From: Paludibacter jiangxiensis
Lineage (GTDB): Bacteria; Bacteroidota; Bacteroidia; Bacteroidales; Paludibacteraceae
Assembly (NCBI GenBank): GCA_945870155.1
Contig: CAMBSB010000030.1
Coordinates: forward strand, 1 to 41,675
DNA: 41,675 nt
Direction: 5' to 3'
The notes beneath the pieces are model-generated. The model was given only the letters and a program-made list of their open reading frames with translations. It was not told the DNA's origin and did no database searches. This document shows, one piece after another, positions 12,675 to 30,543 of the stretch (its first letter is position 1; every line of letters begins with the position of its first letter). The translations under genes and the position numbers were made by a program.

Positions 12675-12731
12675 TCTCCACATATTCAGTCAAAAATTCC
12701 ACATCATATATTATTATTCAATTTAATTTAG
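12675..12731 (+). promoter_or_regulatory. Candidate HTCS operator and promoter A (before PL9 gene 1)
   Basis: The direct repeat CCACAT occurs at 12678-12683 and 12699-12704 (21-bp period) with AGTCA between (12688-12692). After exactly 19 nt comes TAATTTAG (12724-12731), a near match to the TAnnTTTG -7 box. The same architecture recurs at 27156-27212 and, on the minus strand, at 30469-30522. A 21-bp direct repeat next to the -33 region is what an AraC-type activator such as the nearby HTCS would be expected to use. The regulator assignment is inference. Confidence 0.65.
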
Positions 12732-12768
12732 CGTCATGATAAAATCGAAAAATTAAACAAATAATATT

Positions 12769-15495
12769 ATGAAACGAATTTACTCCTTTGCAATTTTATT
12801 TTTTTGTGTCTTGAACTTTATTTCAGCCCGAACAATTTATGTTTCAACTACGGGCGATGATGCTAATCCGGGAACAGAAGCATCTCCCTATTTAAACATT
12901 CAAAAAGCAGTGGATGAAGCAGTTCCGGGTGATATGATATTCCTTCGAGGTGGAACTTATATGCTTACCAAACGTATTAAAATTCAGAAAGCCGGTACTT
13001 CCGAAGCACGCATCAGCATGTTTGGATATCAGGGTGAACGCGTTATAATTGATGGTACAAATATAGCAGTAACATCGGTCAATGAATTCAAACAGGCGCG
13101 TTGCATTTATGTCAACCATTTTGGCGATTATTGGCATTTTAAGAACATGGAATTTACTAATGCCAAAGACAATGGTATGAAAATGGAAGGAAGTTACAAT
13201 ATTGTAGAAAATTGTAAGTTTTACGGCAACAACGATACAGGACTTCAGATAGGGATGTATAAGGATTTTTCTATCGAAGAAACACAATCGTTTCCAATTT
13301 CAGGTGAACCTCAATTTAATCCTAATTACAGCTATTGTAAATATAATGTAGTAATTAACTGCGACTCCTGGTATAACTATGATAGCAAATCCTTTAGTGG
13401 AAGTGATGATGGAGGCGATGCCGATGGTTTTGCTGCCAAACTTTTTCCCGGTCCCGGAACTGAATTTCGTGGCTGTCGTGCATGGAATAATTCCGACGAC
13501 AATTGGGATTTGTACATGGTTTATCATCCTATAGTTATTGATAATTGCTGGAGTTGGAAAGCAGGTTACACTCCTAGTAATTCAGGCATAGGTAATGGTA
13601 ACGGTTTTAAACTCGGGGGCGGAGGAACATCGGGTGGTGCTGCATTTGCACAGTCAGTTGGGGCTCATGTTGTGCGTAATTGTGTTGCTTTCGATTGTTT
13701 GCACAAGGGTTTCGACCAAAATAATGCTTACGAAGCCATGTACATTTTTAATAACGTATCATTTGGAAATGAATACAATTATCGCTTCCCTACAGTTTTT
13801 CAGTATGGAACTATGTATATGCGCAATAATATTGGTTTTAAACCCACAACATTGAATCACGAATTTCTATCAGTTGACAAAGAAGGAGCTCAGGTGCCTA
13901 ACACTGCTTTTAACAGCTGGACAACTTTTGATGGTTGTGACGCCTACAAAGATGGAAATAAGGTGAATGGAGTTGCTGTAAAGGCTCAGGATCATTCGGC
14001 ACAATTCAAAAGTTTGTCTTCTACATTATTTTTAGCCAATCGTCAAGCTGATGGAAGTTTACCCGAAAATGATTTTTGTAAGTTAATTTCAGGAAGTAAA
14101 TTTATAAATTCAGGAGAAAATATCGAAAACTTCACACCTGCTGCTCATAGTCCGGGTGGTTTAACCTTACCCAATGTTTCCATTTTATACAATGATGGAA
14201 AAGCCGATATGGGAGCTTACGAAACAGGATTAGCTACTACTGCAACACTTTCGTTAATTTCAGGTAAAGCTGACCAGACAATTTTCACTGGAAATGCTAT
14301 CACTCCAACTATTTATAAATGGGGAGGTGCAGCAACTGATGTAACTGTGAGCAATTTACCTACAGGTTTAGAGCTAATTAAAGATGCTATAGCAAAAACT
14401 GTAACTATTTCAGGCATTCCAACTACAGAAAACACATATTCTGTGGTAAATATAGGTGGTTCAAATACAATTACATTGACAGGAGTGATAAAAATTTCAA
14501 CTCAGGCAGCTGCCACTTTAGTCTTAACCGAAGGTAAAGCAGCTCAGGAAGTATTTTTTGGTAATGCCATGATAAAAACAGTTTTTACCTGGGGTGGAGG
14601 AGCAACTGATGTTACTTACACTACATTGCCTGCGGGTATTGTAGCTGTAAAAGACATGACAGCAAAAACACTTACTTTTACCGGAGCTCCAACCGAGGAT
14701 GGTGCATTTTTAGTAAGTTCTGTGGGCGGTATGGAAGGTTCAACAGTTTCCATCAATTGTAATATTACACGTGTATTACCAACAAAAATTCTTACAGGTG
14801 ACTGGTATCATTTACAGGATTCTATCAATAAATTACCTGCCGACCTTCAAGGAGTATTAACAATTGGAAATGGAACAAGTTCGGCTAATCCAACTGTTTT
14901 AAATCCGGGATATGTTGAAACAACCGGTTCAGCTCCAAGTGGATGCACAATAGGTGCAATTAATGTAGAACGAAGTGGAGGATATGTACAATGGACTTTA
15001 CCTAGTTTAGTTGAACTGAAATCGAATATTCATTTTACAGGAACACGTACTTTGAATATTGAGTATACAGTGGGTGGTGTAACTAAAACATGGACTTCGG
15101 CTTCGTTGGCAAAACAAACCATGTTGAATTGGGACATGATGTTAGCCATTGGACTTGAACCAACCAAGAAACCGGTTACAATTAAATTTATAAACACAAC
15201 ATCTAGTGGTGGAATACGTGTTTACGATTTCTTTGTAAAAACTTTTGATGTTTCATCGGCTGTTGAAAAAGTTCAAGAACCAAAAACTACATTCCAAATG
15301 TATCAAACTGAAACAGCTTTGATAGTTTATGGTGAAATTGCTCAATTGAAAGTATATAATTTATCGGGAGCTGTAGTTGCTCAATCTACCATGTCGCAAA
15401 TTGTGGAAACAAACAAATTGACAAACGGTATTTATCTTGTTCATATACAAGATAAATCGGGTAGAGTTCTAACTCAAAAATTTATTAAAAAATAA
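12769..15495 (+). CDS. PL9 pectate lyase 1 with T9SS tail
   Basis: Secreted endo-acting pectate lyase. A signal peptide (1-20) is followed directly by the PL9 right-handed beta-helix (about 22-490). By spacing against Dickeya Pel9A, D219 (in DADGFAAK), D243, D244 and D247 (DDNWD) correspond to the calcium ligands, and K281 (NGFKLGG) to the catalytic base. Two Ig-like/putative-adhesin-type repeats follow (about 495-660, with repeated WGGxATDVT motifs), then a beta-sandwich (about 670-830). The T9SS sorting tail occupies about 838-908, with LKVYNLSG, NGIYLVHI and a basic end. It would be exported by type IX secretion and held at or released from the surface. It is the first of three PL9 genes in a row and lies 37 nt behind a candidate HTCS-controlled promoter. 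Confidence 0.93.
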   Translation: MKRIYSFAILFFCVLNFISARTIYVSTTGDDANPGTEASPYLNIQKAVDEAVPGDMIFLRGGTYMLTKRIKIQKAGTSEARISMFGYQGERVIIDGTNIAVTSVNEFKQARCIYVNHFGDYWHFKNMEFTNAKDNGMKMEGSYNIVENCKFYGNNDTGLQIGMYKDFSIEETQSFPISGEPQFNPNYSYCKYNVVINCDSWYNYDSKSFSGSDDGGDADGFAAKLFPGPGTEFRGCRAWNNSDDNWDLYMVYHPIVIDNCWSWKAGYTPSNSGIGNGNGFKLGGGGTSGGAAFAQSVGAHVVRNCVAFDCLHKGFDQNNAYEAMYIFNNVSFGNEYNYRFPTVFQYGTMYMRNNIGFKPTTLNHEFLSVDKEGAQVPNTAFNSWTTFDGCDAYKDGNKVNGVAVKAQDHSAQFKSLSSTLFLANRQADGSLPENDFCKLISGSKFINSGENIENFTPAAHSPGGLTLPNVSILYNDGKADMGAYETGLATTATLSLISGKADQTIFTGNAITPTIYKWGGAATDVTVSNLPTGLELIKDAIAKTVTISGIPTTENTYSVVNIGGSNTITLTGVIKISTQAAATLVLTEGKAAQEVFFGNAMIKTVFTWGGGATDVTYTTLPAGIVAVKDMTAKTLTFTGAPTEDGAFLVSSVGGMEGSTVSINCNITRVLPTKILTGDWYHLQDSINKLPADLQGVLTIGNGTSSANPTVLNPGYVETTGSAPSGCTIGAINVERSGGYVQWTLPSLVELKSNIHFTGTRTLNIEYTVGGVTKTWTSASLAKQTMLNWDMMLAIGLEPTKKPVTIKFINTTSSGGIRVYDFFVKTFDVSSAVEKVQEPKTTFQMYQTETALIVYGEIAQLKVYNLSGAVVAQSTMSQIVETNKLTNGIYLVHIQDKSGRVLTQKFIKK

Positions 15496-15508
15496 CTGTT
15501 ATTTTCAG

Positions 15509-15541
15509 ACCTGACAGGTTTTTATTACCTGTCAGGTTTTC
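15509..15541 (+). terminator. Terminator or attenuator between PL9 genes 1 and 2
   Basis: The arms acctgacaggt (15509-15519) and acctgtcaggt (15527-15537) are perfect reverse complements, with a T-rich loop and TTTT after the stem. No new promoter is obvious before the next start at 15571, so partial read-through is plausible. Confidence 0.8.
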
Positions 15542-15570: not shown

Positions 15571-18333
15571 ATGAAAAAAATTACACTTTCTCTGTTGGGA
15601 TTATTGTTTTTTGTAGGAATGGTTTCAGCCCAATTTTCAGAAACTTTCGAAACCGGAATGCCTGCATCTGCTCCTTCGTCCGAAACTACTGCATTGCTGG
15701 CATCAGGTACATGGAAAATCAATGGGGTTTTTGGCAAATCAGACAATGGCAGTAATCGTTTAGCAATGAATACAAATGCTTATGCTATTACCCCTGCCAT
15801 CGATAAACCTTTATCGCTTAGCTTCTCACATCGCGGTAGTGGCAGTGGCAAAATTCTGACAGTATATAAATCAATTGATAACGGAGCAAACTGGACAAGC
15901 ATAGGCACTGCAACTGTGAATTCTGCTTCCACTTACGGCTCAAGCAATATGTCGGTAGGCGAGGCTGGTACAAAAGGTGTTTTACTTAAATTCAGTTGCG
16001 GTTCTGCCACTATATACGTCGATAATGTGGTTGTTACTGTTTCAGCCATGGGTGATGAACCTACTACTCAGGCATCGCTTACTGCCAGCGAAATAACAGG
16101 TTCGTCAATGAAAATTAATTTTACCAAAGGAAATGGCACAGGTCGTTTATTGGTATATTCAAAAGCTACTGCTGTAACCTGGATTCCTGTTGATGGAACA
16201 CCTTATTTGAATTTGCCCAAATTGCTCGATACCAATGTAATGGGTGTATCAGCCGGAAATGCTGATAATGTGGTGATTACAGGGCTTGAAGCCGGTGAAA
16301 CCTATCATTTTGCAGTTTTTGAATTCAATGGCACGAATGAGAATACTAACTATCTGACATCTTCTGTTGGTCGACTTTCGCAAATAACTTCACAAGTGGC
16401 CAGTATTACCATAAATCCATCAATTATTAACTTTGGTTCGGTAAAAACATCAACTTTCAGTAAACGCAGTTTCACTGTTTCAGCAAAATATTTGTCACCT
16501 GCCGATGGAAATATTGCACTTACAACAAGTTCAGATTTCATGATTTCAACATCCTCATCGGATGGTTTTGGAACTTCACTCAACTTAGCTTATTCAGCCG
16601 GAACACTATCAAGCACAATAGTTTATGTTCAATTTCTGCCCTCAGCTTTGCAAAATTATTCAGCTTCATTAAATTTAAACGGAGGTGGAGCAACATCACA
16701 ATTATCATTACTTGGAATTGGTTCAAACACCGATTCCAAAGTTTATTACTTATCTCCAACCGGAAGCGACAGTGGGGAAGGTTCTTTCGACTCTCCGTGG
16801 TACAATCTTCAAAAAGCCGTGGATGCTGCTGTTCCCGGCGATACCATCATTTGCCGTGGAGGAACTTATTTCCCGAATATGATGAAAGATGGAACGAAAA
16901 CCACAGTACGTCTGACAACTATAGGTACTGCTGCAAAAAAGATTACGATAAAAAATTATCCCGGCGAAGCTCCTATTTTCAACTTCAAAGATCAACCAAA
17001 AAAAGTGAGCGTACGTGGTATTCAATTGGATGGTAATTATTGGCATATTTATGGTTTACATATAACTCAAGCCGGTGATAACGGTATAAAATTAGAAGGT
17101 AATTATAATAAAATTGAACGTTGTACATTTAGCTATAACGATGATACAGGTATTCAATTGGGATTCGGACACAATTTTTCAGATACGCACCCTGGAATTT
17201 CTTCGAACAATGGGAGTTATTGTGCTTATAATGATGTGGTTGATTGTGACTCCTACCTGAACTGCGATGCTGATAATTTTGGTAGCGATGCCGATGGTTT
17301 TGCCTGCAAAATGCACAATGGAATTGGAAACCGCTTTATTCGTTGTCGTGCATGGGACAATGCCGATGATGCTTGGGATTTGTATGAAACCGATTATCCA
17401 GTTTACCTGATAGAATGTTGGGCATGGGGTTCCGGTCGTGCCGAAAATTTCACCTGGGTACAGGCTGCCGGCTCGTTTCAGGGCAATGGAAACGGCATAA
17501 AAATGGGTGGAAATGGCACAGGCGGCTCATCCGAAGGAAAACATGAAGCATGGAATAGTGTGGCTTTTAATTGTAATAAAAGTGGTTCTGTTAAAGGTTT
17601 TGATCAAAATAGTCACAATGGAGGTGTAAAACTGGTTAATTGTTTGGCATTTGGTTGTGGATACGATTTTATGTTCGAAAAATCGTCGAACGATTGCGAG
17701 TATTACAACAATGTTTGTTTTGGAAATATCGAAATTGCAGGAGGATTGAACAGCAATAATGCTATGCTTTCTACTTCTGACAAAGCCTGGACAAACGTCA
17801 TTCGGGGTTTTGGTGCTTCTGATTTTGTGAGTTTAAGCGAAACCGATGCCAAAGCGCCACGTGGTGCAGATGGAAGTATGCCAACTAAATTTGCCCGACT
17901 TAAAAGTGGAAGCGTTTTGGTTGATAAAGGATTGAATCTTGTACCTCCATTTACGAATGATTTCCCATTTTTAAAGCAAAATGTTTATAGTTCTTCACGC
18001 GATATAGGTCCTTACGAATTACAGGAAGGTAATGTAAATACTGGTATTCAACTCATTATGAATTTGGATGCTAAATTAGTTCTTTCAATACTGCCAAATC
18101 CTTGCAAATCAGAAGCAATTGTAAAATTCAGCAGTGATTTTCCCGGCTCGGCTACTCTGAAAATTGTGGGTTTAAATGGTCAGACTATCAAAGAATGTTA
18201 CAAAGTTCAAGCTGATGCAGGCGTGGAGTATTTTATTCCTGTTTCGGTTAATTTACTCAACAATGGTATTTATTTTTGCCAGTTAAACATTGGCAATCAA
18301 ACCAGAACAACTAAATTGATAGTTGTAAAATAA
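15571..18333 (+). CDS. PL9 pectate lyase 2 with N-terminal accessory domains and T9SS tail
   Basis: A signal peptide (1-20) leads into a jelly-roll-like domain (about 22-155, starting FSETFETGMP), then a fibronectin-III-like segment (about 160-275) and an Ig-like/choice-of-anchor-type segment (about 278-385). The PL9 helix runs from about 392 to 810. Calcium ligands D575 (DADGFACK), D599, D600 and D603 (DDAWD) and catalytic K644 (NGIKMGG) are all present. A T9SS tail ends the protein (about 835-920, with SILPNPC, GLNGQTIKE and NNGIYFCQL). It differs from PL9 gene 1 mainly by carrying its extra domains at the N-terminus. The gap from the previous gene is 75 nt and contains a hairpin. Confidence 0.93.
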   Translation: MKKITLSLLGLLFFVGMVSAQFSETFETGMPASAPSSETTALLASGTWKINGVFGKSDNGSNRLAMNTNAYAITPAIDKPLSLSFSHRGSGSGKILTVYKSIDNGANWTSIGTATVNSASTYGSSNMSVGEAGTKGVLLKFSCGSATIYVDNVVVTVSAMGDEPTTQASLTASEITGSSMKINFTKGNGTGRLLVYSKATAVTWIPVDGTPYLNLPKLLDTNVMGVSAGNADNVVITGLEAGETYHFAVFEFNGTNENTNYLTSSVGRLSQITSQVASITINPSIINFGSVKTSTFSKRSFTVSAKYLSPADGNIALTTSSDFMISTSSSDGFGTSLNLAYSAGTLSSTIVYVQFLPSALQNYSASLNLNGGGATSQLSLLGIGSNTDSKVYYLSPTGSDSGEGSFDSPWYNLQKAVDAAVPGDTIICRGGTYFPNMMKDGTKTTVRLTTIGTAAKKITIKNYPGEAPIFNFKDQPKKVSVRGIQLDGNYWHIYGLHITQAGDNGIKLEGNYNKIERCTFSYNDDTGIQLGFGHNFSDTHPGISSNNGSYCAYNDVVDCDSYLNCDADNFGSDADGFACKMHNGIGNRFIRCRAWDNADDAWDLYETDYPVYLIECWAWGSGRAENFTWVQAAGSFQGNGNGIKMGGNGTGGSSEGKHEAWNSVAFNCNKSGSVKGFDQNSHNGGVKLVNCLAFGCGYDFMFEKSSNDCEYYNNVCFGNIEIAGGLNSNNAMLSTSDKAWTNVIRGFGASDFVSLSETDAKAPRGADGSMPTKFARLKSGSVLVDKGLNLVPPFTNDFPFLKQNVYSSSRDIGPYELQEGNVNTGIQLIMNLDAKLVLSILPNPCKSEAIVKFSSDFPGSATLKIVGLNGQTIKECYKVQADAGVEYFIPVSVNLLNNGIYFCQLNIGNQTRTTKLIVVK

Positions 18334-18384
18334 TCATCGAAATAAATTATTATTAAAAAAAAATGGCATTGTACCGATCTTATT

Positions 18385-18419
18385 CCCCTCTCCTCAAGGA
18401 GAGGGGTTAGGGGTGAGGT
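18385..18419. repeat. Dispersed intergenic repeat, copy 2
   Basis: The palindrome cccctctcct (18385-18394) with aggagagggg (18397-18406) is followed by ttaggggtgagg. It is the reverse orientation of the element at 31-71. It fills most of the gap between PL9 genes 2 and 3 and could act as a terminator-like hairpin. Confidence 0.75.
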
Positions 18420-18446
18420 AGTTACATTTAAAATTGCGTTATCTAT

Positions 18447-20306
18447 ATGAAAAAACTCTTACTTCTACTGTCAATTATATTTTTAACTACGTCACTCTCG
18501 GCGCGTCAACTTTATCTTTCGACCAGCGGAAGTGATGCCAACAACGGTTTGTCGCTTCAAACTGCATGGCTATCACCTAATTATGCCTTTAACGCATTGG
18601 TAGCCGGTGATACACTTTGGGTGAAAGGTGGAACTTACACGGTAAATTCAACCGTAAAATCGAAAAATGCTGGTACAAAAACTCAACCGATTAAAGTCCT
18701 TGCCCTCAAAGGTGAAAAACCTGTTTTCGATTGTTCATCGTTTAGAAACTACGGTAGTGAAAGTTCTACATACCGGGGCATGGATTTACGACAATCGTGG
18801 TGGCATGTTCGTGGAATTAAAATTTACAAAGCCGGACATAACGGAATTATTATTGCTGGTGAAAATATAATTGTTGAAGGTTGTACTATTCAGGAATGTG
18901 GGCACGATGGAATTTCAATCGGTGCAGGTTCGATAAATGCTTTGGTCATTAATTGCGACTCGTACCGGAATGCTGAAGTAGCCGGAAAGGGCGAAAATGG
19001 GGATGGCTTTGCAGCGAAAGAAGGCTCCGGAACTATTTTTCGTGTTTGCCGCGCATGGGAAAATTGCGATGATGGCTGGGATGTTTATGGTGGAAGTCAG
19101 CCTGTTTTGATTGATAGTTGTTGGTCGTTCGGGAACGGAGTGAATTATTGGCCTGACTTAATTCCTGATTACCAGGGTGATGGTAATGGTTTTAAACTTG
19201 GAGGCGGAGGCGGTGTTGATGGTAATGCACCGAATGTGGTTTTGCATAGCTTTGCATTCAGCAATGTGAGCAAAGGTTTTGACCAAAATCATAATGCCTG
19301 GGGTGTAACTTGTATAAATTGTACGGGTTACAATAATAACGGCATGGGGAATTTTGCATTTCAGGAAGTTCCTGCACAAGGTAAACATGTAATGATTAAT
19401 AATTTATCATATGCCGGAACCGGACAAAATATTGATTCCGGAAGTACCGAAACTACCAATAGTTGGAATCTCGGATTAAGTTTTACTAACGATATGTTCG
19501 AAAGCTTGAATGCAGCGGATGCAAAAACCGATAGAGATGAAAATTACCGATTGACTGACCCAAAACTCATTTCGCTTTTTAAATTAAAAAACACAAATCC
19601 AGCTATTGATAAAGGTACAGTCCAAACTTTTATTCGGCTGAAACCCTATTATGCCATACCTTATTCAGCAGCAAAACCCGATTTAGGAGCTAGAGAATTG
19701 GAAACCGGCACTTGGACATTTCCAACACCCGATGAAACACAGCCAGAGGATACTACAGGTACAAATCCGGGAATTCGACCATCAGGCATAAAACAAATAA
19801 TAGTCAATATTGCTACTCAATTTACTATTAATGCCGGAGCACAATCCACTGTTTGGGGTCCGTTTCGACTGGCATCTGCCGAAAGTGCTGTATTCGATTT
19901 TCAAGCGGTAGGTTCATCGAGTGGTGCAGCCATAATTGAATTCTCGAAAGATAATAATAACTGGGAACAAGTGGGAGCACAAGCCAAGAATGGAAGTACA
20001 AGTTGGGTAACTGGTAAATTAATTGACCTGAGTGCTGATACTGCACCTTGGGGACCAACAATTTACATTCGTTTTAATAACAACTCCACCAAAAATGTAA
20101 ATATAAAAAACTTGATTATCACAGGTACAATTTACACACTTAGTGGCATAGAAATAATTGACAACGATTCACCCTTGATATATTTAAGATATTTCAATAT
20201 TAACGGTCAGGAAGTTTCAGAAAACACGGAAGGTTTATTAATTCAAAAATCTGTTTTTGAAAACGGAAAAGTAAACATTCAAAAAATTTGCAGAAAAAAT
20301 ATCTAA
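18447..20306 (+). CDS. PL9 pectate lyase 3
   Basis: A signal peptide (1-19) is followed by a PL9 helix (about 20-425). D186 (GDGFAAK), D208, D209 and D212 (DDGWD) and K250 (NGFKLGG) match the calcium ligands and base of the family, with a two-residue deletion between the first two sites relative to its paralogues. Residues about 450-570 form a beta-sandwich, and the C-terminus (about 585-619) has a short degenerate tail (YLRYFNINGQEVSENT) instead of a full T9SS domain. It is the most compact of the three PL9 proteins. The stop lies 14 nt before the chosen start of the PL1 gene, which argues for one transcript. Confidence 0.92.
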   Translation: MKKLLLLLSIIFLTTSLSARQLYLSTSGSDANNGLSLQTAWLSPNYAFNALVAGDTLWVKGGTYTVNSTVKSKNAGTKTQPIKVLALKGEKPVFDCSSFRNYGSESSTYRGMDLRQSWWHVRGIKIYKAGHNGIIIAGENIIVEGCTIQECGHDGISIGAGSINALVINCDSYRNAEVAGKGENGDGFAAKEGSGTIFRVCRAWENCDDGWDVYGGSQPVLIDSCWSFGNGVNYWPDLIPDYQGDGNGFKLGGGGGVDGNAPNVVLHSFAFSNVSKGFDQNHNAWGVTCINCTGYNNNGMGNFAFQEVPAQGKHVMINNLSYAGTGQNIDSGSTETTNSWNLGLSFTNDMFESLNAADAKTDRDENYRLTDPKLISLFKLKNTNPAIDKGTVQTFIRLKPYYAIPYSAAKPDLGARELETGTWTFPTPDETQPEDTTGTNPGIRPSGIKQIIVNIATQFTINAGAQSTVWGPFRLASAESAVFDFQAVGSSSGAAIIEFSKDNNNWEQVGAQAKNGSTSWVTGKLIDLSADTAPWGPTIYIRFNNNSTKNVNIKNLIITGTIYTLSGIEIIDNDSPLIYLRYFNINGQEVSENTEGLLIQKSVFENGKVNIQKICRKNI

Positions 20307-20320
20307 ATATCATTTCATCC

Positions 20321-21577: not shown

Positions 21578-21881
21578 GTTTCTAGGTTGAAAGTTATATT
21601 AATAATTCATCAATTACCATGTGAAATATTTTATGGAATGGGTGCAGAGGAAATGAAATTACTAGTTTTTTTAATGCATGCAAATTCTGAAAAAATCATT
21701 ACATTTATACCAAAATCTATTGACACAATAACATAAACCTAAAAAACTCAGCTTCGCGCACATTAATCGTCACAAAGCATAAATTATCAGGTGTTTACAC
21801 TGAAAATGGGAACAGATCAAAAATTATTAGTTACTAATTATGCATGCTATTATAAATTAACTTTTTATCAATATTTAAATC
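21578..21881. other. Intergenic stretch without a recognised feature
   Basis: These 304 nt between the PL1 gene and the Gfo/Idh gene are AT-rich. I see no coding frame, strong hairpin or consensus TAnnTTTG box, and none of the direct repeats found before 12769 and 27257. Confidence 0.5.
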
Positions 21882-23246
21882 ATGGAAAATAAAATGAGTC
21901 GCCGAAATTTCATTGGCAAATCGGCAGTTGTAGGAGCAGCTGCTTTGTTAAGCAATGTACCAATCATAAGCAATGCTGCAAAAAAAGCACAGGCAAAAAC
22001 TGTAGTTTCTGGTAAAACAAAAGTCGCCATAGTTGGAACCGGTTCGCGGGGCACAAATATGTGGGGCAAAACCGTGATTAATGGTTATGCTGATATGGTG
22101 GAATATGTTGGTTTGTGTGATAAAAACCCGGGCAGACTTGAGGCCGCAAAAAAATATATGGGTGCAAGCTGCAAAACATACATCGATTTCGATACTATGC
22201 TGAAGGAATGTAAGCCTGATATACTGATAGTTACAACTATGGATTCCACTCACGATGAATTTATAATTAAAGGGTTAAATGCCGGCTGCAATATTCTGAC
22301 TGAAAAACCCATGACTACCGATGAAGTAAAATGTCAAACTATACTCGATGCTCAAAAACGATCAGGAAAAGAAGTGATTGTAACATTTAATTATCGGTAT
22401 TCTCCACATCGCGCCAAAATTTGGGATCTGATAAATTCAGGTGAAATTGGCGATGTAACTTCAGTCGATTTTCATTGGTACCTGGATACCAGCCACGGAG
22501 CCGATTATTTCCGTCGTTGGCATCGCAAACGCGAATTTGGAGGATCATTGTGGGTGCACAAAGCATCGCATCATTTCGATTTATTAGGTTGGTGGCTAAA
22601 TTCCGAACCCGAAGAAGTTTTTGCTTATGGAAACCTTGAATTTTATGGAAAAAATGGCAAACAACGCGGTACAAATTGCCGAAATTGCAGTCATAAAGAT
22701 AATTGCGATTTCTATTGGGATGTAAATAAAAACGATTACTACAAAATGTTATACACTGATAACGAACGACATGATGGATATTTGCGTGATGGTTGCGTGT
22801 TCAAAGAAGATATAGATATTTTTGACAAAATGTGTGCATCAATCAAATATGCCAATGGTGTTCAAGTGGCTTATTCGCTCACTGCATATTCACCTTACGA
22901 AGGCTACAGAATAGCATTCAACGGAACTAAAGGTCGCATCGATGCCTGGATTCAGGAAAGTAACCCTACTCATGATGGGGAATATGATGAAATAATGGTT
23001 ACACGTAATTTTGGAAAACGAAATTATATTCGTGTTCCTCAGTCCGAAGGTCATGGTGGAGGCGATAAATTGATGCACGATAAAATCTGGCGCAATGTAA
23101 CTGAAGATCCTTTCAAACAATCAGCTAACATTCGCGATGGGGCATTTGCTATTCTTACAGGCGTTGCAGCTCGTAGAAGTTGCGATAGTGGTAAGCCGGT
23201 GAAAATTGCCGATTTAACTGATTTGGTTCCAAAAGCAAAAAAATAA
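21882..23246 (+). CDS. Tat-exported Gfo/Idh/MocA-family oxidoreductase
   Basis: The N-terminus carries a twin-arginine signal (SRRNFIGKSAVVGAAALL), so the protein is probably folded with its nicotinamide cofactor before export to the periplasm. The Rossmann domain begins KVAIVGTGSRG (about 47-57), and the family EKP motif includes K142. A cysteine cluster, C266-x2-C269-x5-C275, could bind a metal. Members act on sugars or sugar derivatives, some as NAD-dependent glycosidases. The pectin context suggests a sugar or uronate substrate, but none can be named. The start could also be the internal ATG at 21894, which would still keep the Tat motif. Confidence 0.87.
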   Translation: MENKMSRRNFIGKSAVVGAAALLSNVPIISNAAKKAQAKTVVSGKTKVAIVGTGSRGTNMWGKTVINGYADMVEYVGLCDKNPGRLEAAKKYMGASCKTYIDFDTMLKECKPDILIVTTMDSTHDEFIIKGLNAGCNILTEKPMTTDEVKCQTILDAQKRSGKEVIVTFNYRYSPHRAKIWDLINSGEIGDVTSVDFHWYLDTSHGADYFRRWHRKREFGGSLWVHKASHHFDLLGWWLNSEPEEVFAYGNLEFYGKNGKQRGTNCRNCSHKDNCDFYWDVNKNDYYKMLYTDNERHDGYLRDGCVFKEDIDIFDKMCASIKYANGVQVAYSLTAYSPYEGYRIAFNGTKGRIDAWIQESNPTHDGEYDEIMVTRNFGKRNYIRVPQSEGHGGGDKLMHDKIWRNVTEDPFKQSANIRDGAFAILTGVAARRSCDSGKPVKIADLTDLVPKAKK

Positions 23247-23247
23247 A

Positions 23248-23294
23248 CCCTAACCCTCCCGATAACTATAGGGGCTTTCCCCAAAAGGGAGGGA
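23248..23294. repeat. Dispersed intergenic repeat, diverged copy
   Basis: It reads ccctaaccctccc (23248-23260), an inner palindrome ggggctttcccc (23271-23282), then gggaggg (23288-23294). The outer and inner parts can pair, giving a compound hairpin just after the stop at 23246; it may serve as a terminator. Confidence 0.6.
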
Positions 23295-23413
23295 GATAGC
23301 GTAAATCAATGTTTTGTGCTATTTTGAAAACATCAAAATTCACATTAGTTTGCAAACTGGACAAATCTTCAAACTTTCAAATTTTTTAAATCTTCAAATT
23401 CATAATTTCAGAC

Positions 23414-24781
23414 ATGTCAAAAAAATATCTATTAATTCTTTTTTTCTCAGTTTTTGCTGTTAGTCTTTTTGCAGCTACTTTTCGCACAGATTCACTTTAT
23501 TCAAAATGGATAATTGATTCACGTATGGGCGATTTCAGAAATAAAAATTCCACCGAAGGATTTAAAACGCCAAACAATACCCGAAATACAATTTGGGATT
23601 ACGTGACCGGATTAGTGGCAAAATCGATTCTTATGACTTATGAGCAATACAGTGCCGACCCACGTTGTGCCTACTATTTCGATGGTATTCAGGATTACGC
23701 CGACAACTCAACCATGGTGCTTGGTGCAAGTAATATTGATGATTTAAATGCAGCAAAAATTTATTTCGAGTTGTACCGATTTGCTTTGCAAAAAGGACAA
23801 ACCTCAAAAGCAGCAACCTACAAAGCCAATGCAACAATTTGTCGGAATAAATTAAAAACCGAACATACACGCATTGCAGGAAATTTACCCGGCAAAGGTG
23901 GTTTTTGGCATAAATACCAATATACCAATCAGATGTGGCTCGATGGACTTTATATGGGTCCGGCCATGTACGCCGAGTGGCAAGGGAATTTTGGTGTTGA
24001 ATTGGGAGATGCCGACAATACTGCTTCGTGGAATGATATTGCCTTGCAATTCGATACCGTTTTCAAATACACTTGGGATGCGCAAAAAAAACTCAATTAC
24101 CATGCCTGGTCGGCCGAACCGCTGAATGCAGCTTCATCTTTTTGGGCAAATGCCTCTACCGGACGTTCGCAGGAATTTTGGGGACGCGGTGTGGGCTGGT
24201 TCTTTGCAGCTTTGGTGGATGTGTTGGAATATATGCCGACGAATCATCCGGCCCGAACACGTTTGGTAAATTATACCAATCTGGTGGCCGATGGACTTAA
24301 ATCTCGTCAGGATGTAACGAGCGGCTGTTGGTTTCAGTTGTTACAGTTCGACAATTCCAAAAATGGAACTTCGTGCAATGTGAATAATTATTTGGAATCA
24401 TCGGCTTCGAGCATGTTTACATACTCTTATTTTAAAGGAATGCGTCTGGGTGTTTTGGATAAAATAATTTACAAACCTATAGCCGACAAAGCTTATAAAG
24501 GATTGATTGAGAACTTTGTAGTAGAAGAAACCAATGGTAAGATTAAATTGATTCAAAGCTGCGAATCGGCGGGTCTAAGCGGAACACGCAAAGGAGATGC
24601 TAATTATTACCTTTGTGGAAGCGATGTGGCTATTCACAATAATACCGAAGGTAAAGTCCTTGGACCATTTATCATGGCCAGTTTGGAGTACGAAAAAACC
24701 AAACAAACTGGCACATCTACAATTATCCCAAAAAAAAAGATGAAATCCTGTTGGTTCAAACAGCTGAAAGCCTCGAAATAA
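23414..24781 (+). CDS. GH105 unsaturated rhamnogalacturonyl hydrolase, frameshifted at its C-terminus
   Basis: It removes the unsaturated uronic acid left by lyases at the non-reducing end of rhamnogalacturonan oligosaccharides. A signal peptide (1-20) precedes an (alpha/alpha)6 barrel. Likely active-site aspartates are in NIDDLNA (D109/D110) and WLDGLYMGP (D177), matching the pair known in YteR; WGRGVGWFF and CGSDVAIHNN are further family blocks. The frame ends abruptly after a nine-A run with KKKMKSCWFKQLKASK, which is unlike any natural C-terminus. In the -1 frame the protein would continue as KKDEILLVQTAESLE and end with a T9SS-like tail at 24951. Possible causes are a one-base loss in the A-run (in the genome or in sequencing), transcript slippage, or programmed -1 frameshifting. 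Confidence 0.9.
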   Translation: MSKKYLLILFFSVFAVSLFAATFRTDSLYSKWIIDSRMGDFRNKNSTEGFKTPNNTRNTIWDYVTGLVAKSILMTYEQYSADPRCAYYFDGIQDYADNSTMVLGASNIDDLNAAKIYFELYRFALQKGQTSKAATYKANATICRNKLKTEHTRIAGNLPGKGGFWHKYQYTNQMWLDGLYMGPAMYAEWQGNFGVELGDADNTASWNDIALQFDTVFKYTWDAQKKLNYHAWSAEPLNAASSFWANASTGRSQEFWGRGVGWFFAALVDVLEYMPTNHPARTRLVNYTNLVADGLKSRQDVTSGCWFQLLQFDNSKNGTSCNVNNYLESSASSMFTYSYFKGMRLGVLDKIIYKPIADKAYKGLIENFVVEETNGKIKLIQSCESAGLSGTRKGDANYYLCGSDVAIHNNTEGKVLGPFIMASLEYEKTKQTGTSTIIPKKKMKSCWFKQLKASK

Positions 24782-24951
24782 GTTCTAAAGAAGCCACTTT
24801 TAAATCGGCAACTATTTTCGATAGTTGCGGAAAACTACTAACTGCCCGATATGGAAACGCTACCAACAAAGTAGTTTTGTCCGTCGAGTCGTTTCCTAAA
24901 GGTGCTTATGTATTGCAAGTTAATGGGCAGATTATTAAGTTGATGCTGTAA
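24733..24951 (+). other. Slippery heptamer A-AAA-AAG and displaced T9SS-like tail in the -1 frame
   Basis: The heptamer at 24733-24739 is in the correct phase of the GH105 frame (AAA at 24734, AAG at 24737). A -1 slip there makes GAT (24739) the next codon and opens a frame to the stop at 24949-24951. That frame encodes about 70 residues including SATIFDSCGKLLTARYG and FPKGAYVLQVNGQIIKLML, the typical shape of a T9SS sorting tail. The heptamer is the same one used in Escherichia coli dnaX. I did not identify a convincing stimulatory stem-loop just downstream. Confidence 0.7.
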
Positions 24952-24989
24952 GAAAAATATCATTTTAGATATTCAAATAAAGTAAAAAA

Positions 24990-26867
24990 ATGAAAAGAGT
25001 AACTTTCACATTTTTTGTAATATTATTCACTGCATTTCAAGCTGCATCACAAATTACCATTACCGAATCAGCAGGATGGCTAGAATCAGCTTGTGTGAAA
25101 TGGACACCATTTCAGGGAGCATCATCTTACAATGTTTATTACAGCGGTGGTGGAACTACTGATAAAAAACTTGATACCCAGCTAATTCGCAGTTACGGTA
25201 CTTATTTTCGTGCCGATGTGCTAGGACTTGCGGAAGGAACTTATACGTTGAAAGTTGTGCCCGTAGTTGGTACTGTCGAAAATATGGCTGCAGCAACTGT
25301 TAGTCCGGCACTAATAGTTAAACCACATGTAAGAGAAGGTTTTGCTTTTACAAATGGTGTAATTCCGGGTGCGTATAACCTCGATGGCACTGCAAAAGCC
25401 GGTGCAATTATCATTTATCTTACTGAAGCAAATGCCAATACTGTAAGTTGTGACGTTAAAAACGATAAAGGTGTAGCAACAACATATTCAGGGATAATGA
25501 ACATTCTGACCGCCCGAGGTAAAGGTTATGATAAAACGCCATTGATAATTCGTATGATTGGCTGTGTTAAAACCATAAGCAGTCTGAATGCAGGCAATTT
25601 TTTCTATTTTGGTGGTTTTAATAATACAACCCGTCTGATTGAAAATATTACAGTCGAAGGTGTAGGCGATGATGCAACTGCATATAGCTATGGATTTGGT
25701 TTTAAACGCTCTAAAGGAATTGAAATCCGAAATATTGGCATCATGATGTTTGGTGACGATGGTGTAGGTATGGATACGGATAATTTTAATATTTGGATTC
25801 ACAATAACGATTTCTTTTATGGCAAACCTGGCGCTGATGCCGATCAGGTAAAGGGCGATGGTTCCATCGATCTGAAATATAATTCCACACGTATTACACT
25901 TTCGTTCAATCACTTTTGGGATTCGGGTAAAGTAATGGGCATAGGTGGAGCTACCGGTGAAGACTCTCCATTGTTAGTAACTTACCATCATAATTGGTTC
26001 GACCATGCCGATTCGCGCTGCCCGCGCCTTACCAATACCAATTCGCATGTTTACAACAACTACTACGATGGCGTTGCCAAATATGGTGTTGGAACTGCTA
26101 AGGTTACTTCTGTTTTTGTCGAAGCAAACTTTTTCAGAGGCTACCAACGTCCAATGACTATCTCGGGTCAAGGGTCAGACACATATAGCTCTGCAACAGG
26201 AGCTTACGATTTGGATGGAACCTTCTCAGGTCAGGCTGGCGGTATGACTAAATCCTACAATAATAAACTGGATAATTGTATAAAATATGTATCGAACAAA
26301 CAACATGCTACTCAGTTCGATGCATACGAAGTGGAAAGTCGTAATGAACAAATTCCGGCAACCGTTAAAGCCGTAACCGGAGGTTATGTGTATAATAACT
26401 TCGATACCGAAGCAGGCTTTTACACCTACAGTCCTGAGACTCCTGATAATGCCAAAGCAAATGTAATCACTTATGCCGGACGTTTGAATGGTGGTGATTT
26501 CAAATGGAGTTTTAACAATGTGGTAGATGATGTTTCGGCGGACGTAAATCAGGCTTTAAAAGCTGCAATTGTGGGTTATCAATCAAAACTTGTTGCCATT
26601 CAGGGTGAAAGCGGTGGTGTAAGCGAAGTTAAAAGACCAACTAGGCTACAGCTAAATATTTATCCAAACCCAGTACACAATATATTGAAAATAAGCTCAG
26701 ATGCCATTATTATAGGAATAGAAATTTACAGTATTTCTGGCCTATTACTACAGACTTTTGAAGGTGGGATGACAAGTTTAGATATAAATCAACTTTCAAA
26801 AGGAATTTATTTGTTGAGCATAAAAACCGAAAATGAACAAATACAGAAAATAATTGTAAAAGTCTGA
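24990..26867 (+). CDS. PL1 pectate lyase 2 with fibronectin-like domain and T9SS tail
   Basis: A signal peptide (1-20) is followed by a fibronectin-III-like domain (about 22-108, WLESACVKWTPFQGASSYNVYY) and the PL1 beta-helix (about 115-530). Family blocks are visible: NIWIHNNDFF, GDGSIDLKYNS (calcium-binding region) and HHNWFDHADSRCPRL with R343 as the likely catalytic arginine, then VYNNYYDGV. A canonical T9SS tail closes the protein (about 550-625, with LNIYPNPVHN, IYSISGLLL and KGIYLLSIKTE). It starts 38 nt after the end of the displaced GH105 tail, so the two are probably co-transcribed. Two terminators follow. Confidence 0.93.
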   Translation: MKRVTFTFFVILFTAFQAASQITITESAGWLESACVKWTPFQGASSYNVYYSGGGTTDKKLDTQLIRSYGTYFRADVLGLAEGTYTLKVVPVVGTVENMAAATVSPALIVKPHVREGFAFTNGVIPGAYNLDGTAKAGAIIIYLTEANANTVSCDVKNDKGVATTYSGIMNILTARGKGYDKTPLIIRMIGCVKTISSLNAGNFFYFGGFNNTTRLIENITVEGVGDDATAYSYGFGFKRSKGIEIRNIGIMMFGDDGVGMDTDNFNIWIHNNDFFYGKPGADADQVKGDGSIDLKYNSTRITLSFNHFWDSGKVMGIGGATGEDSPLLVTYHHNWFDHADSRCPRLTNTNSHVYNNYYDGVAKYGVGTAKVTSVFVEANFFRGYQRPMTISGQGSDTYSSATGAYDLDGTFSGQAGGMTKSYNNKLDNCIKYVSNKQHATQFDAYEVESRNEQIPATVKAVTGGYVYNNFDTEAGFYTYSPETPDNAKANVITYAGRLNGGDFKWSFNNVVDDVSADVNQALKAAIVGYQSKLVAIQGESGGVSEVKRPTRLQLNIYPNPVHNILKISSDAIIIGIEIYSISGLLLQTFEGGMTSLDINQLSKGIYLLSIKTENEQIQKIIVKV

Positions 26868-27012: not shown

Positions 27013-27070
27013 ATTTATTTTTTAAGTTCCTCAAAATCAACATTTTGTTAAAATTAAATTCAAGCCAATT

Positions 27071-27103
27071 TATCCACACTATAAGTCATTTTTTGCACAT
27101 CAT
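27071..27103 (+). promoter_or_regulatory. Candidate HTCS box B (upstream copy)
   Basis: CCACAC (27074-27079) and GCACAT (27095-27100) are spaced 21 bp apart with AGTCA at 27084-27088, exactly as in site A at 12675-12707. The two 33-bp sites share roughly 70% of positions. There is no -7 box 19 nt downstream. Its first unit lies 85 bp, close to four 21-bp steps, before that of box C, suggesting an auxiliary site on the same helix face. The 16 bases at 27063-27078 recur as an exact reverse complement at 30497-30512. Confidence 0.6.
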
Positions 27104-27155
27104 TTTATTTATTTCCCTCTTTTTCTGGAGAGTTGAAAAACATTAAATGTCAATT

Positions 27156-27212
27156 TCTCCACTTAATTAGTCAAATTTTGAACATACAAGTTTTGAATAC
27201 CATCTATATTTA
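27156..27212 (+). promoter_or_regulatory. Candidate HTCS operator and promoter C (before 27257)
   Basis: CCACTT (27159-27164) and GAACAT (27180-27185) are 21 bp apart with AGTCA at 27069+100 (27169-27173). After 19 nt comes TATATTTA (27205-27212), one mismatch from TAnnTTTG. The spacing equals that of the sites before 12769 and before the minus-strand gene ending at 30421. Confidence 0.65.
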
Positions 27213-27256: not shown

Positions 27257-29164
27257 ATGGAAAAACTTATTACACAATTTATAGCAATGATTGCTATATT
27301 ATTATTGAATTTTGTGAGTGTAAATGCTGCGGATGTACAACTAAGATTTAATGCTTCATTTACAAGCACTGCTTCTAAAGCATTTTCAACTACTGATGTA
27401 TTATATGCAGTTGATGCAGCAACTATGTCGACAAGCACAAGTAATGTAGTATTTGCATCACCAAATAATTTTAGAGTTCAGTTAAAAACAATCGTTCTAG
27501 AACTTAAAAGTACTTCGGCTGCTGCTATTAAAGTTTACGGTATGAGTTCTGGAGCAACTTCAACCCGTACAATTTATCAAGTTTCTGTAGCCGATAGTTA
27601 TGCTGGTACATATACTTTAGTAGATGATGTTACGCTGTCAGGTACAAAGATTACTTCAAATATCTATGGTCAGGTTGTTGCAACTTCCGAAACCGCAGTT
27701 ACTGGACTAAATATTCCTATGGGAAAATTTGTAAAAATAAGCTTCTGCACAAGTAGTAGCGGCGGTTCAACTCAAAATGTAAATATTAGCGGTTTTGATA
27801 TTACTCCCTTGCCTAGTAATCCAACAATTACAGCATTTATCGCTGAAGGTGTTTCAGCAACTATTAATCAAGGTGCTAAAACCATAACCGCAGAATTACC
27901 TTATGGTACAAATCTAACAGCAATTACACCCACTGTAACATTAGGTGGAACTGCTACAAGTTATGATCCTGCAGGTGCTCAAAATTTTTCAGCCGGTGCA
28001 GTAAATTATATAGCAAAAGACGGTACACCAGCTAACGATGTAACTTATGCTGTAACACTTACAGCAGCAGCTACAGCAAGTTCAGATAAAGCGCTTTCGG
28101 CGGTTACTATTGGCGGCTTCACTCCACAATACGATGCCGGAACGAAAACATACAGTATAATTTTACCTAAAGCAAGTAGTTTAACTCAACTTGTTTCATT
28201 CACAAAACCAATTACTGCAACAGCAAATTTTACTTCAGGGAATATACACAACTTTTCAAATCCGCTGGACATTACTGTTACTGCACAAGATAACTCTACT
28301 GAAGTATATCATTTACAGGTAATTGTAGGTACAAAAAACATCGCTTATGTTACCGTTTCCGGAAATTCTGATCCTTACTTGCGTGGAAGTTTGGTTGCCA
28401 AAGGATACTATGTTGAAGATGTAATTGCAGCAAGTCAAACAGCGAGTTATTTTGCAAATCACGATTTGGCAATTTTATTCGATGTTGTGAATAGTGCAAA
28501 TACATTGGCTTTGAATATGAAGGATTTAATTGGTACAAAACGTTTCTTGAATCTTAAAGCTTTTATGTATGGTAAAACAGGTTGGCCAACTGGTACAGGA
28601 GTTAATGTTGCTGCTTCAAAAGTGGCTACTGTGGCTACTAATTATGTTTCGCATCCAATTTTTAGTGGACTAACATTTTCCAATTCAGATATAACTTTGG
28701 TTGATGCTGGCGTAACAGGAAATGGGTTACAAGGTGTTACAACTCCGGGTACCGGAGCTAGTATTGCCAAAATGTTTGATAATGCTGCTGCTTCGTGCAT
28801 CATTGAAGACAATACTGTAGAAACTGCCATGTATTTGATGGTTGGACTTGCCAATGGTGCAACTGCCGGTTTGGCTTATATTAGTGCCGATGGTAAAAAA
28901 TTGCTGGATAATTCGGTTGCATATTTATTGGGTGATACTAAATATGTACCAACATCAACATCTTTAAAAAACAGTAATTTTAACGGCATTAGTTTCGTTG
29001 ATAATATTATACTAAATCCTAATCATGAATTTGTAAGTGTTTTTGATGCTTTAGGTCGTAAACTAATTAGTTCAAACAAAGAAATTAATATGGATGCTTA
29101 TTCAAGTGGAATTTATATTGTTAAATCTCAAAATGAGATACTAAAAATTTCTCATAATAAATAG
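27257..29164 (+). CDS. Secreted multidomain protein, GATase-like, with T9SS tail; function unknown
   Basis: A signal peptide (about 1-24) precedes a jelly-roll-like domain (about 25-195, with AIKVYGMSSGATSTRTIYQV and FVKISFCTSSSG) that resembles domains attached to Bacteroidota pectate lyases. Two DUF5018-like beta domains follow (about 196-280 and 283-362). Residues about 365-575 look like a class-I glutamine-amidotransferase-type fold (AYVTVSGNSDPYLRGSLVAKGYYVEDV) without a catalytic triad that I can recognise. The T9SS tail spans about 580-635 (FVSVFDALGRKL, SSGIYIVKS). No enzyme motif is evident, so a surface binding role is possible. Two candidate HTCS boxes lie upstream and a strong terminator lies downstream, so it is a single-gene transcript. 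Confidence 0.82.
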   Translation: MEKLITQFIAMIAILLLNFVSVNAADVQLRFNASFTSTASKAFSTTDVLYAVDAATMSTSTSNVVFASPNNFRVQLKTIVLELKSTSAAAIKVYGMSSGATSTRTIYQVSVADSYAGTYTLVDDVTLSGTKITSNIYGQVVATSETAVTGLNIPMGKFVKISFCTSSSGGSTQNVNISGFDITPLPSNPTITAFIAEGVSATINQGAKTITAELPYGTNLTAITPTVTLGGTATSYDPAGAQNFSAGAVNYIAKDGTPANDVTYAVTLTAAATASSDKALSAVTIGGFTPQYDAGTKTYSIILPKASSLTQLVSFTKPITATANFTSGNIHNFSNPLDITVTAQDNSTEVYHLQVIVGTKNIAYVTVSGNSDPYLRGSLVAKGYYVEDVIAASQTASYFANHDLAILFDVVNSANTLALNMKDLIGTKRFLNLKAFMYGKTGWPTGTGVNVAASKVATVATNYVSHPIFSGLTFSNSDITLVDAGVTGNGLQGVTTPGTGASIAKMFDNAAASCIIEDNTVETAMYLMVGLANGATAGLAYISADGKKLLDNSVAYLLGDTKYVPTSTSLKNSNFNGISFVDNIILNPNHEFVSVFDALGRKLISSNKEINMDAYSSGIYIVKSQNEILKISHNK

Positions 29165-29203
29165 TTGTTTTTCATGATTGAATAAAGTTTTTAAGCTCGA
29201 AAG

Positions 29204-29517: not shown

Positions 29518-29540
29518 AACCCTTCAGGGGGTTGGGGGGC
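29518..29540. repeat. Dispersed intergenic repeat (AACCC-TTCA-GGGGGTT type)
   Basis: aaccc, ttca, gggggtt and a following gggggc resemble the C/G-rich repeats in the spacers at 38414-38580 and 39412-39522. It is a single diverged copy between two converging genes. Confidence 0.5.
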
Positions 29541-29552
29541 TGTAGTATTTAC

Positions 29553-29591
29553 AAAAAAAAAGAGACTGTCCAATTAAGCACAGTCTCTTTT
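29553..29591 (-). terminator. Terminator of the minus-strand gene (can act in both directions)
   Basis: agagactgt (29561-29569) and acagtctct (29580-29588) form the stem. On the minus strand the stem is followed by a T-run (the A-run at 29553-29560 on the plus strand). It lies about 20 nt beyond the stop of the minus-strand gene. Confidence 0.85.
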
Positions 29592-29611
29592 CACTATCAA
29601 ACCTAAAAAAA

Positions 29612-30421
29612 CTATCTTACAAATTTCAAAGTTTCTTTTATCCCTTCGGTGCGTACCAAATATATACCTTTATCAAACTTTTCAACCGAAATGTTTTCAG
29701 TTGAGTTAGCTACTTTTTTACCAAGCATATTATATACTTCAATATCAAGACCTTTAGAATTTAAAACATGTGAGCCGTTATAACTGATTCCTTTATCGGC
29801 AAATACAGGATTTACAGCTGTAGGTGCTACATAATTAGTTGCAGATAAATAGGTTAAATTACATGCTGCATTACCAAATACATATAAAGTAGTTGCAGGG
29901 CCGGTATAAGTAATAGTTCCATCATTTAGTGCTGATGATGCAGGAAAATCAACAGCACCTACATAATTAGTACCATCTGTAACAAATACTTTTCTGGGAG
30001 ATGAAGCCGAACCTGTTATGCCGATAATATAAATGGTACTATTTCCGCTAACATTAAAACTCAAATAGCGTTGTGTAGGCATGTTAACTAATGGGGTTGC
30101 ATCGGTGTTCACTGCACCTGAATAACCTGCTCCATTTAATTGAAATCTGTTTGGAAATGAATACGTTCCAAAGGTTTTTGCGGATGCATTTACAGCACCC
30201 ATATTCAAATTTGTTAAAATACCAGTGATGTTTAACCCGTTAATATTTACTGGAAATGCTGGATTGCCGGCACTACCATCTCCAGTGCCTATACCTGCTG
30301 AAAGGGGGAATGCAGGTGCTGTTGCTGCTAAGGTTAAATCACCTCCTAAATTCCATACTTTTTGTGCATTTAATGCTATACAAAAAAATGTAACCGTTAA
30401 TAATAGTAATGTTTTTTTCAT
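29612..30421 (-). CDS. Small secreted jelly-roll protein with T9SS tail; function unknown
   Basis: This 269-aa protein starts with a signal peptide (MKKTLLLLTVTFFCIALNAQ) followed by KVWNLGGDLTL. Residues about 20-205 form a beta-rich domain with RYLSFNVSGNSTIYIIGITG and TITYTGPATTLYVFGNAACNLTYL. That pattern resembles the accessory beta-sandwich attached to many Bacteroidota pectate lyases and polygalacturonases, but here it stands alone. The last roughly 55 residues are a T9SS tail (LDIEVYNMLGKKV, FDKGIYLVRTEG). No catalytic motif is seen. It is the only minus-strand gene in the window and is divergent from the HTCS gene, with a candidate HTCS promoter 48 nt before the start. A surface pectin-binding role is my inference. 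Confidence 0.82.
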   Translation of the reverse strand: MKKTLLLLTVTFFCIALNAQKVWNLGGDLTLAATAPAFPLSAGIGTGDGSAGNPAFPVNINGLNITGILTNLNMGAVNASAKTFGTYSFPNRFQLNGAGYSGAVNTDATPLVNMPTQRYLSFNVSGNSTIYIIGITGSASSPRKVFVTDGTNYVGAVDFPASSALNDGTITYTGPATTLYVFGNAACNLTYLSATNYVAPTAVNPVFADKGISYNGSHVLNSKGLDIEVYNMLGKKVANSTENISVEKFDKGIYLVRTEGIKETLKFVR

Positions 30422-30468
30422 GATAAATTTATTTTAATTGTTTGTTTTTATAAAGAATAATATTACTG

Positions 30469-30543
30469 CAAATGTAGAAAGGATTTACATAATCAATGTG
30501 GATAAATTGGCTGTTTATGTGTATTTTTTGACTAATATGTAAG
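30469..30543 (-). promoter_or_regulatory. Candidate HTCS operator and promoter D (minus strand)
   Basis: Read on the minus strand, three units occur in line: TTACAT (30542-30537), ACACAT (30522-30517) and CCACAT (30501-30496), at 20- and 21-bp steps, with AGTCA at 30533-30529. After exactly 19 nt comes TACATTTG (30476-30469), a perfect TAnnTTTG -7 box. The start codon follows about 48 nt later at 30421. It is the best-formed of the shared promoters and lies next to the HTCS gene itself. Confidence 0.68.

Follow-up and report, generated by a model that had tools for sequence, protein, structure and literature searches.

Introduction

Which regulator reads the paired CCACAT-like repeats that stand ahead of pectin genes in Paludibacter jiangxiensis, and how are these repeats placed with respect to the promoter? 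The DNA in question, called the window below, is the whole 41,675-nt stretch of contig CAMBSB010000030.1 (assembly GCA_945870155.1). An original prediction, made from the letters of this DNA, proposed that three transcripts share a direct-repeat operator with a 21-bp period, placed 19 nt before a -7 box, and that it is read by the hybrid two-component system (HTCS) protein encoded at 30662. On the basis of sequence comparisons we give a probability of roughly 0.8 to the reading that the repeats are the operator of this pectin-sensing HTCS and that they act at sigma-ABfr promoters devoid of a -33 element. In what follows G000 designates the own genome and other G numbers relatives, C numbers are contigs of the own genome and L numbers are locus stretches.

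Three proposed operators in register with the -7 box

The three paired-hexamer sites are found at the predicted coordinates; their period is 21 bp, and the second hexamer is exactly 19 nt away from the 8-nt box. The fourth, box-less copy at 27074-27100 is likewise present. The elements concerned are the following:

12666-12704, plus strand: operator 1, two half-sites with a 21-bp period, CCACATATTCAGTCAAAAATTCCACAT at 12678-12704, upstream GTCAA box degenerate
12724-12731, plus strand: -7 box of operator 1, TAATTTAG, 5/6 against TAnnTTTG, 19 nt past operator 1
27062-27100, plus strand: operator 2b, an extra copy without -7 box, repeat at 27074-27100
27147-27185, plus strand: operator 2, GTCAATTTCTCCACTTAATTAGTCAAATTTTGAACAT, of which 27159-27185 reads CCACTTAATTAGTCAAATTTTGAACAT
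27205-27212, plus strand: -7 box of operator 2, TATATTTA, 5/6, 19 nt past operator 2
30496-30534, minus strand: operator 3, GTCAAAAAATACACATAAACAGCCAATTTATCCACAT, of which 30522-30496 reads ACACATAAACAGCCAATTTATCCACAT, footprint kept in relatives
30469-30476, minus strand: -7 box of operator 3, TACATTTG, 6/6, 19 nt past operator 3, conserved
30584-30591, plus strand: probable -7 box of the HTCS gene, TATTTTTG, conserved, as TGCAAAAATA on the other strand
30662-35050, plus strand: HTCS gene, the proposed operator reader, with Reg_prop sensor, Y_Y_Y, HisKA, HATPase, receiver and AraC-type helix-turn-helix (HTH) domains

Operator 1 matches the operator pattern without a mismatch. The CCACAT hexamers do occur in pairs, but they are loose in site 2 (CCACTT, GAACAT) and site 3, where the first one is ACACAT; similarly, the TAnnTTTG-type box is perfect in site 3 but only 5/6 in sites 1 and 2. 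The AGTCA described between the units has an in-register counterpart, AGCCA, in site 3, and sites 2 and 3 have an additional GTCAA 10 bp ahead of their first hexamer. GTCAA is thus part of each half-site and the repeat consists of two copies of GTCAAwwnnTmCACAT. Alignments of six own-genome promoters and of 62 sites from several species give this same half-site of ~16 bp, repeated at 21 bp, so that the direct repeat stands as predicted while the unit is larger than a hexamer. In each half-site a GTCAA box is followed at about 10.5 bp by an mCACAT box, a layout that suits an AraC-type domain with its pair of HTH motifs. Because of this box spacing and the 21-bp repeat, all four boxes would face one side of the DNA. 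The 21-bp period applies throughout the window but not to at least six gapped sites of relatives, which have a 22-bp half-site period and keep the 19 nt to the box (L170, L174, L185, L195, L166:13048-13113 and L181:5921-5985; five of the six ahead of SusC genes). L183:9822 looks like a seventh site of this kind.

The spacer between operator and box is fixed in length and shows no clear sequence conservation. The sigma-ABfr -7 consensus is TAnnTTTG in the available text of PMC7366714, and this element is present at 6/6 at operator 3 and at the HTCS-adjacent sites of relatives (11/11), and at 5/6 at sites 1 and 2. The TTTG of sigma-ABfr promoters at about -33 was not found in the aligned sites, where the proximal CCACAT half-site occupies this place as judged by eye from the box distance. 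If TAnnTTTG is centred near -7, the proximal hexamer should cover about -36 to -31, i.e. the position of the -33 element. An operator ending at a fixed 19 nt from the -7 box would fit the geometry of class II activation if transcription starts where this box predicts. The distance from the -7 box to the ATG has a median of 46 nt and falls between 15 and 110 nt in 47 of the 53 sites with an open reading frame, a set that includes some sites from pectin clusters taken whole and is biased towards pectin genes.

The 30662 protein carries all the domains that define an HTCS in one chain, and its sequence relatives in the PDB are 4a2l and 12aw. No operator lies 19 nt ahead of the -7 box of the HTCS gene; since this gene has its own conserved box without an operator, it is probably expressed constitutively.

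Conservation beside the HTCS gene

Orthologues of 30662 with 59-72% identity occur in 11 of the 59 relatives, and six more relatives contain a full-length match of 38-43%. The named contigs carrying 69-71% orthologues belong to Paludibacter or to uncultured Bacteroidales. An operator with a perfect TAnnTTTG at 19 nt stands beside the HTCS in 11/11 relatives with a 59-72% orthologue and also in a further Paludibacter genome (L052). Ten of the 11 have it in the adjacent divergent region, and in G032 it is about 1.5 kb upstream, ahead of a SusC gene. Overall, the operator lies beside 30662 or its orthologue in 13/13 genomes seen; in the footprint alignment L024 is wrongly placed. Within the 59-72% group the recognition-helix regions of the DNA-binding domain, SRTVFFNKLKSLTG and DPRYFSRCFK, are unchanged wherever aligned (L028 ends at a contig end and L030 gave no match to the domain).

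A sequence-only model of the operator, R1, was trained on the six own-genome promoters that carry a box at 19 nt. An R1 match at E≤0.01 exists in 16/17 relatives with the HTCS or its ~40% paralogue versus 6/42 others (p=1e-8, Fisher tests here and below counting related genomes as independent), and at least two matches exist in 11/17 HTCS-bearing relatives versus 0/42. All 17 HTCS-bearing relatives also encode a pectinesterase. Among pectinesterase carriers alone, 16/17 with the HTCS have the operator versus 4/12 without (p=9e-4), and the operator is therefore not linked only with pectin genes. The proposal that the operator belongs to the HTCS thus gains from its retention beside orthologues and from this co-occurrence, both of which are consistent with recognition by the HTCS.

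Chance and the sites elsewhere in the genome

Within the window, CCACAT-N4-AGTCA-N6-CCACAT with up to three mismatches occurs 5 times, whereas 100 shuffles held 0.05 on average and never as many as 5; the fifth match, at 23933, is located within the GH88 gene and has no box. The pattern of the original prediction, allowing three mismatches, finds 2 sites against a shuffle mean of 0.07 (1/100 shuffles reached 2) and misses site 2, which has 4 mismatches; allowing two mismatches it again finds 2, against none in 40 Markov sequences. In the 5.79-Mb genome the picture is different, and the assertion that the arrangement is beyond chance rests on the window shuffles but not on raw genome counts. 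We therefore dropped the counts obtained with crude patterns at 3 mismatches as evidence, as they are not above, or about equal to, those of the reversed control. A scan of the genome with at most two mismatches, which had been suggested, gave 5 matches; the four whose surroundings were read are in pectin loci, and the fifth is C4:18943. Across the genome a signal emerges only when one considers the best matches, the presence of a box at 19 nt and the identity of the downstream genes.

Six of the 20 operator-only matches at up to three mismatches carry at least 5/6 of TAnnTTTG at exactly 19 nt; none of the remaining 14 exceeds 4/6 at that distance. These six are the three window sites and the sites at C98 (ahead of a PL9 gene), C113 (ahead of the SusC gene of a pectin polysaccharide utilization locus, PUL) and C193 (ahead of a PL1 gene with CBM77). 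The predicted tie of genome-wide matches to pectin genes accordingly holds for those with a box at 19 nt. With R1, two more own sites come up at E about 1e-4, namely 27063 (operator 2b; 25.2 bits, E=1e-4, outside the R1 training set) and C13:28904, whose gene encodes a PL1-like protein with a type IX secretion system (T9SS) tail, matches the pectate lyase 9buj (E=1.2e-39) and adjoins a pectinesterase gene. A second model, R2, was built from the 62 sites, eight being the same own-genome sites. It gives ten own sites at E≤6e-5 and adds, outside its training set, 27063 and C112:12747. Reading of the C113 stretch revealed a second site ahead of a second SusC gene; between the two SusC genes lie SusD, DUF4957/DUF5123, GH28, GH88 and pectinesterase genes. 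Matches to pectin-related Pfam families are few in the genome at E≤1e-5: three to PF00544, six to PF22842, three to PF01095 and six to PF00295. With so few pectin-family genes it is unlikely that the sites coincide with them by chance, as judged without a formal statistic.

Operator 2b is situated 85 bp, or about 8 helical turns, 5′ of operator 2 and on the same DNA face. A second dimer could possibly bind there.

Genes proposed to be under the operator

The genes presumed to be controlled from the three window operators are:

12769-15495, plus strand: target 1, PL9-like pectate lyase (Pfam PF22842), first of seven same-strand genes, 60% orthologue behind an operator in G022
15571-26867, plus strand: rest of the presumed transcript, two PL9-like genes, PL1, Gfo/Idh/MocA, GH88, PL1
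27257-29164, plus strand: target 2, secreted protein without Pfam domain, relatives behind an operator in G022 (46%) and G025 (49% over 397 aa)
29612-30421, minus strand: target 3, small secreted protein bearing a T9SS-type tail, gene in divergent orientation to that of the HTCS, 68% orthologue behind an operator in G022

The seven genes headed by target 1 would be co-transcribed from operator 1; within 15571-26867 the model searches found no further operator except one weak match (E=0.6). The tail of target 3 matches Por_Secre_tail at E=9.4e-6, just under Pfam's cut-off. PDB sequence searches with the 30421 and 27257 proteins gave nothing meaningful, and the single-sequence structure prediction for the 30421 protein was poor (mean pLDDT 41). 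A SusC/SusD pair is absent among the 21 window proteins scanned; the same operator is, however, present in the SusC/D PUL on C113.

Orthologues of all three window targets are each preceded by an operator in G022, the PL9 site having a poorer box (TAATTTCA). The inclusion of the two secreted proteins in the predicted regulon is borne out by other species, where orthologues of both are behind the same operator, and we conclude that 27257 and 30421 are putative members of the HTCS regulon.

A wider view of the targets comes from 42 sites of relatives whose gene was read (E≤0.0085), i.e. the 47 R1 matches at E≤0.01 minus those of G005, G024, G026, G041 and G047, three of which are partial. Genes of the PL1, PL9, PL11, CE8, GH28 or GH88 families (by Pfam) follow 20/42 of these sites and SusC genes 5/42. 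The remaining ones comprise five small secreted proteins, four of them adjoining the HTCS, four assorted genes (PfkB, MFS, BD-FAE and GH43+GDSL) and eight proteins without an informative domain, including one that is PL1-like by eye and one 27257 orthologue. A PfkB sugar kinase stands behind the operator in two relatives (L183:1585-2607 and L199:1285-2307), which we take to resemble 2-keto-3-deoxygluconate kinase.

Several genes surround these transcripts. The region 36075-41673 contains a gene for a LacI-family regulator followed by UxaE tagaturonate epimerase, SDR, PfkB and Lar_N genes, and is by its gene content likely to be a galacturonate catabolic cluster; no operator was found within it. 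A DUF4350-like protein, below Pfam's cut-off, is encoded directly 3′ of the HTCS gene (35094-35885), and a mostly ankyrin-repeat protein lies beside the pectin cluster (10346-12301).

Which regulator reads the operator?

A number of observations, in addition to the relatedness of the genomes compared, weigh against recognition of the operator by the 30662 HTCS. In the complete genome the operator-only pattern at up to three mismatches has 20 matches versus 27 for the reversed control, and the pattern of the original prediction has 17 versus 16, with no enrichment. The distribution of operator-to-box distances (52 of 62 sites at 19 nt, 4 at 20 and 2 at 40) is partly circular because most of these sites were found with a fixed-spacing model; at L022:6860 the box is at 20 nt. 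Eight of the ten best own sites of R2 are its training set and owe their E-values to construction. A strong operator with box at C112:12747-12805 (L209; R2 E=6e-5) is followed by a gene assigned by eye to the M48 peptidases, not an obvious pectin gene, and the weaker R2 site C154:2626 (E=0.001) precedes a FabG-like, non-pectin gene. Conversely, 5/6 GH28 genes are on contigs where no site reaches E≤0.001. G056 has a 38% HTCS and no match at E≤0.01, the listed HTCS of G010 is a fragment ending at a contig end although the site itself is convincing, and the operator also occurs in genomes with the ~40% paralogue alone.

A different explanation would be that another HTCS mainly reads the operator, either the paralogue of ~40% identity, here called group B, or an HTCS of the C164 type, and that 30662 is a bystander. 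In five genomes (G001, G012, G013, G025 and G037) the operator accompanies an HTCS of ~40% identity and no closer one, G004 has a weak site about 2 kb from the paralogue gene, and the C164 type (own copy on contig C164; grouped at E<1e-180) correlates with the operator, which is found in 11/14 genomes having this type versus 11/45 lacking it (p=4e-4). The adjacency to 30662 orthologues in every genome seen argues in the opposite direction. Among the matches listed, which cover nine scored candidates per genome, the own genome has no ~40% paralogue and its seven other HTCS matches are at most 37% identical, while the C164 type is absent from the operator-bearing G012, G014, G016, G022 and G037 and present in G018, G019 and G043, all without a match at E≤0.01. 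We regard a bystander role of 30662 as unlikely. Conservation and co-occurrence thus favour 30662 as reader in this genome, but not as the exclusive one, as the ~40% identical paralogue probably reads the same operator elsewhere.

It would be even more surprising if a regulator of an entirely different kind, such as the LacI-family protein encoded at 36075-37151, a one-component AraC regulator or a sigma factor, recognized the repeat and shared the locus by accident. The LacI-family gene is close by, and proximity alone names no reader. LacI proteins normally read palindromes. The -7 box is of the sigma-ABfr type and the co-occurrence, computed for the HTCS and not for LacI, tracks the HTCS. 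In the available text of PMC3878776 all 16 Bacteroides HTCS motifs are predicted as two-turn direct repeats. Finally, we find it hardly credible that the sites are mere duplicated promoter DNA or chance similarity in AT-rich sequence. The unenriched genome counts would be expected under chance, but the spacers are unrelated in sequence with the boxes still in register, window shuffles fail to reproduce the sites, matches in other species lie mostly at pectin genes, and the footprint is conserved.

A model for activation by the HTCS

If the 30662 HTCS is the reader, its periplasmic propeller may sense a pectin breakdown product. Phosphorylation of the receiver would then place two AraC-type domains next to each other on the same side of the DNA, each DNA-binding domain reading one ~16-bp half-site (GTCAA plus mCACAT). 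The proximal half-site, lying in the -33 region, would allow activation of the class II type, with the HTCS replacing the missing -33 contact for the sigma-ABfr polymerase. The regulon should consist of the three window transcripts together with the distant SusC/D PUL and the PL1, PL1-like and PL9 lyases.

Such a model would assign to an environmental genus of the Bacteroidota a pectin HTCS regulon with a testable operator of defined register. It would place two secreted proteins without known catalytic domains in the pectin response and join dispersed loci, i.e. lyases, the SusC/D PUL and the sugar-acid genes of relatives, into one regulon. The 19-nt register also suggests how HTCSs may meet the unusual sigma-ABfr polymerase.

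Whether HTCS operators of the Bacteroidota in general lock their proximal half-site 19 nt from the -7 box, with half-sites spaced by 21 or 22 bp and the HTCS as a surrogate -33 element, is a tentative extension which we consider somewhat doubtful. No same-register promoter pairs reached the threshold at 26 HTCS loci of the named collection and 7 own ones, a weak test whose positive control gave 6/10 pairs in register, one of these six not being an operator. A search for 21-bp periodicity before boxes in seven other own HTCS stretches yielded a few faint candidates, e.g. L235:6245 and L233:4840 (10/16 identical). If true generally, this arrangement would help to explain why the -33 element is poorly conserved across the phylum, and HTCS promoters could be predicted from sequence.

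Comparison with known systems

Class II activation by AraC-family proteins (AraC, RhaS, XylS) involves tandem direct half-sites, of which the one nearer the promoter overlaps its upstream element. The Paludibacter operator is similar in having tandem half-sites of two HTH boxes with a predicted overlap of this kind; it differs in that the promoter is of the sigma-ABfr type (-33/-7) and that the proposed activator is a phosphorylated membrane HTCS.

Among the titles on Paludibacter, pectin and HTCS in the matches listed, none concerns this operator, and no paper joining HTCS with DNA affinity purification sequencing (DAP-seq) was found in the literature collection searched. PMC12125979 deals with a regulator of Vibrio and has no bearing on this operator. 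According to the available part of PMC11253607, response-regulator fragments of the Bacteroides thetaiotaomicron HTCSs BT4124 and BT4663 bind their own PUL promoters in electrophoretic mobility shift assays. They share with 30662 a receiver followed by an HTH_18 DNA-binding domain and the S/CHIP motif of the receiver, SHIP in 30662; locus and DNA are different, and the motif was compared for its receiver part, as distinct from the DK of the DNA-binding domain.

The closest parallel is provided by the 16 HTCSs of B. thetaiotaomicron, whose operators are predicted as direct repeats with on average 21 bp between half-sites of 12-16 bp in the text of PMC3878776 available to us. This set includes the rhamnogalacturonan/pectin regulons HTCS_Rgu-1 and Rgu-2, and paralogous Bacteroides HTCSs may share one motif there. 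The operator described here resembles them in its direct repeat of ~21 bp and in the HTCS encoded in the locus, a comparison made by geometry and not by motif letters, and is distinguished by the genus and by targets that comprise both a SusC/D PUL and lyases with T9SS tails. The same text makes no mention of promoter position or of a 19-nt register. This register is an addition to the predicted direct-repeat operators of HTCSs, now in another genus.

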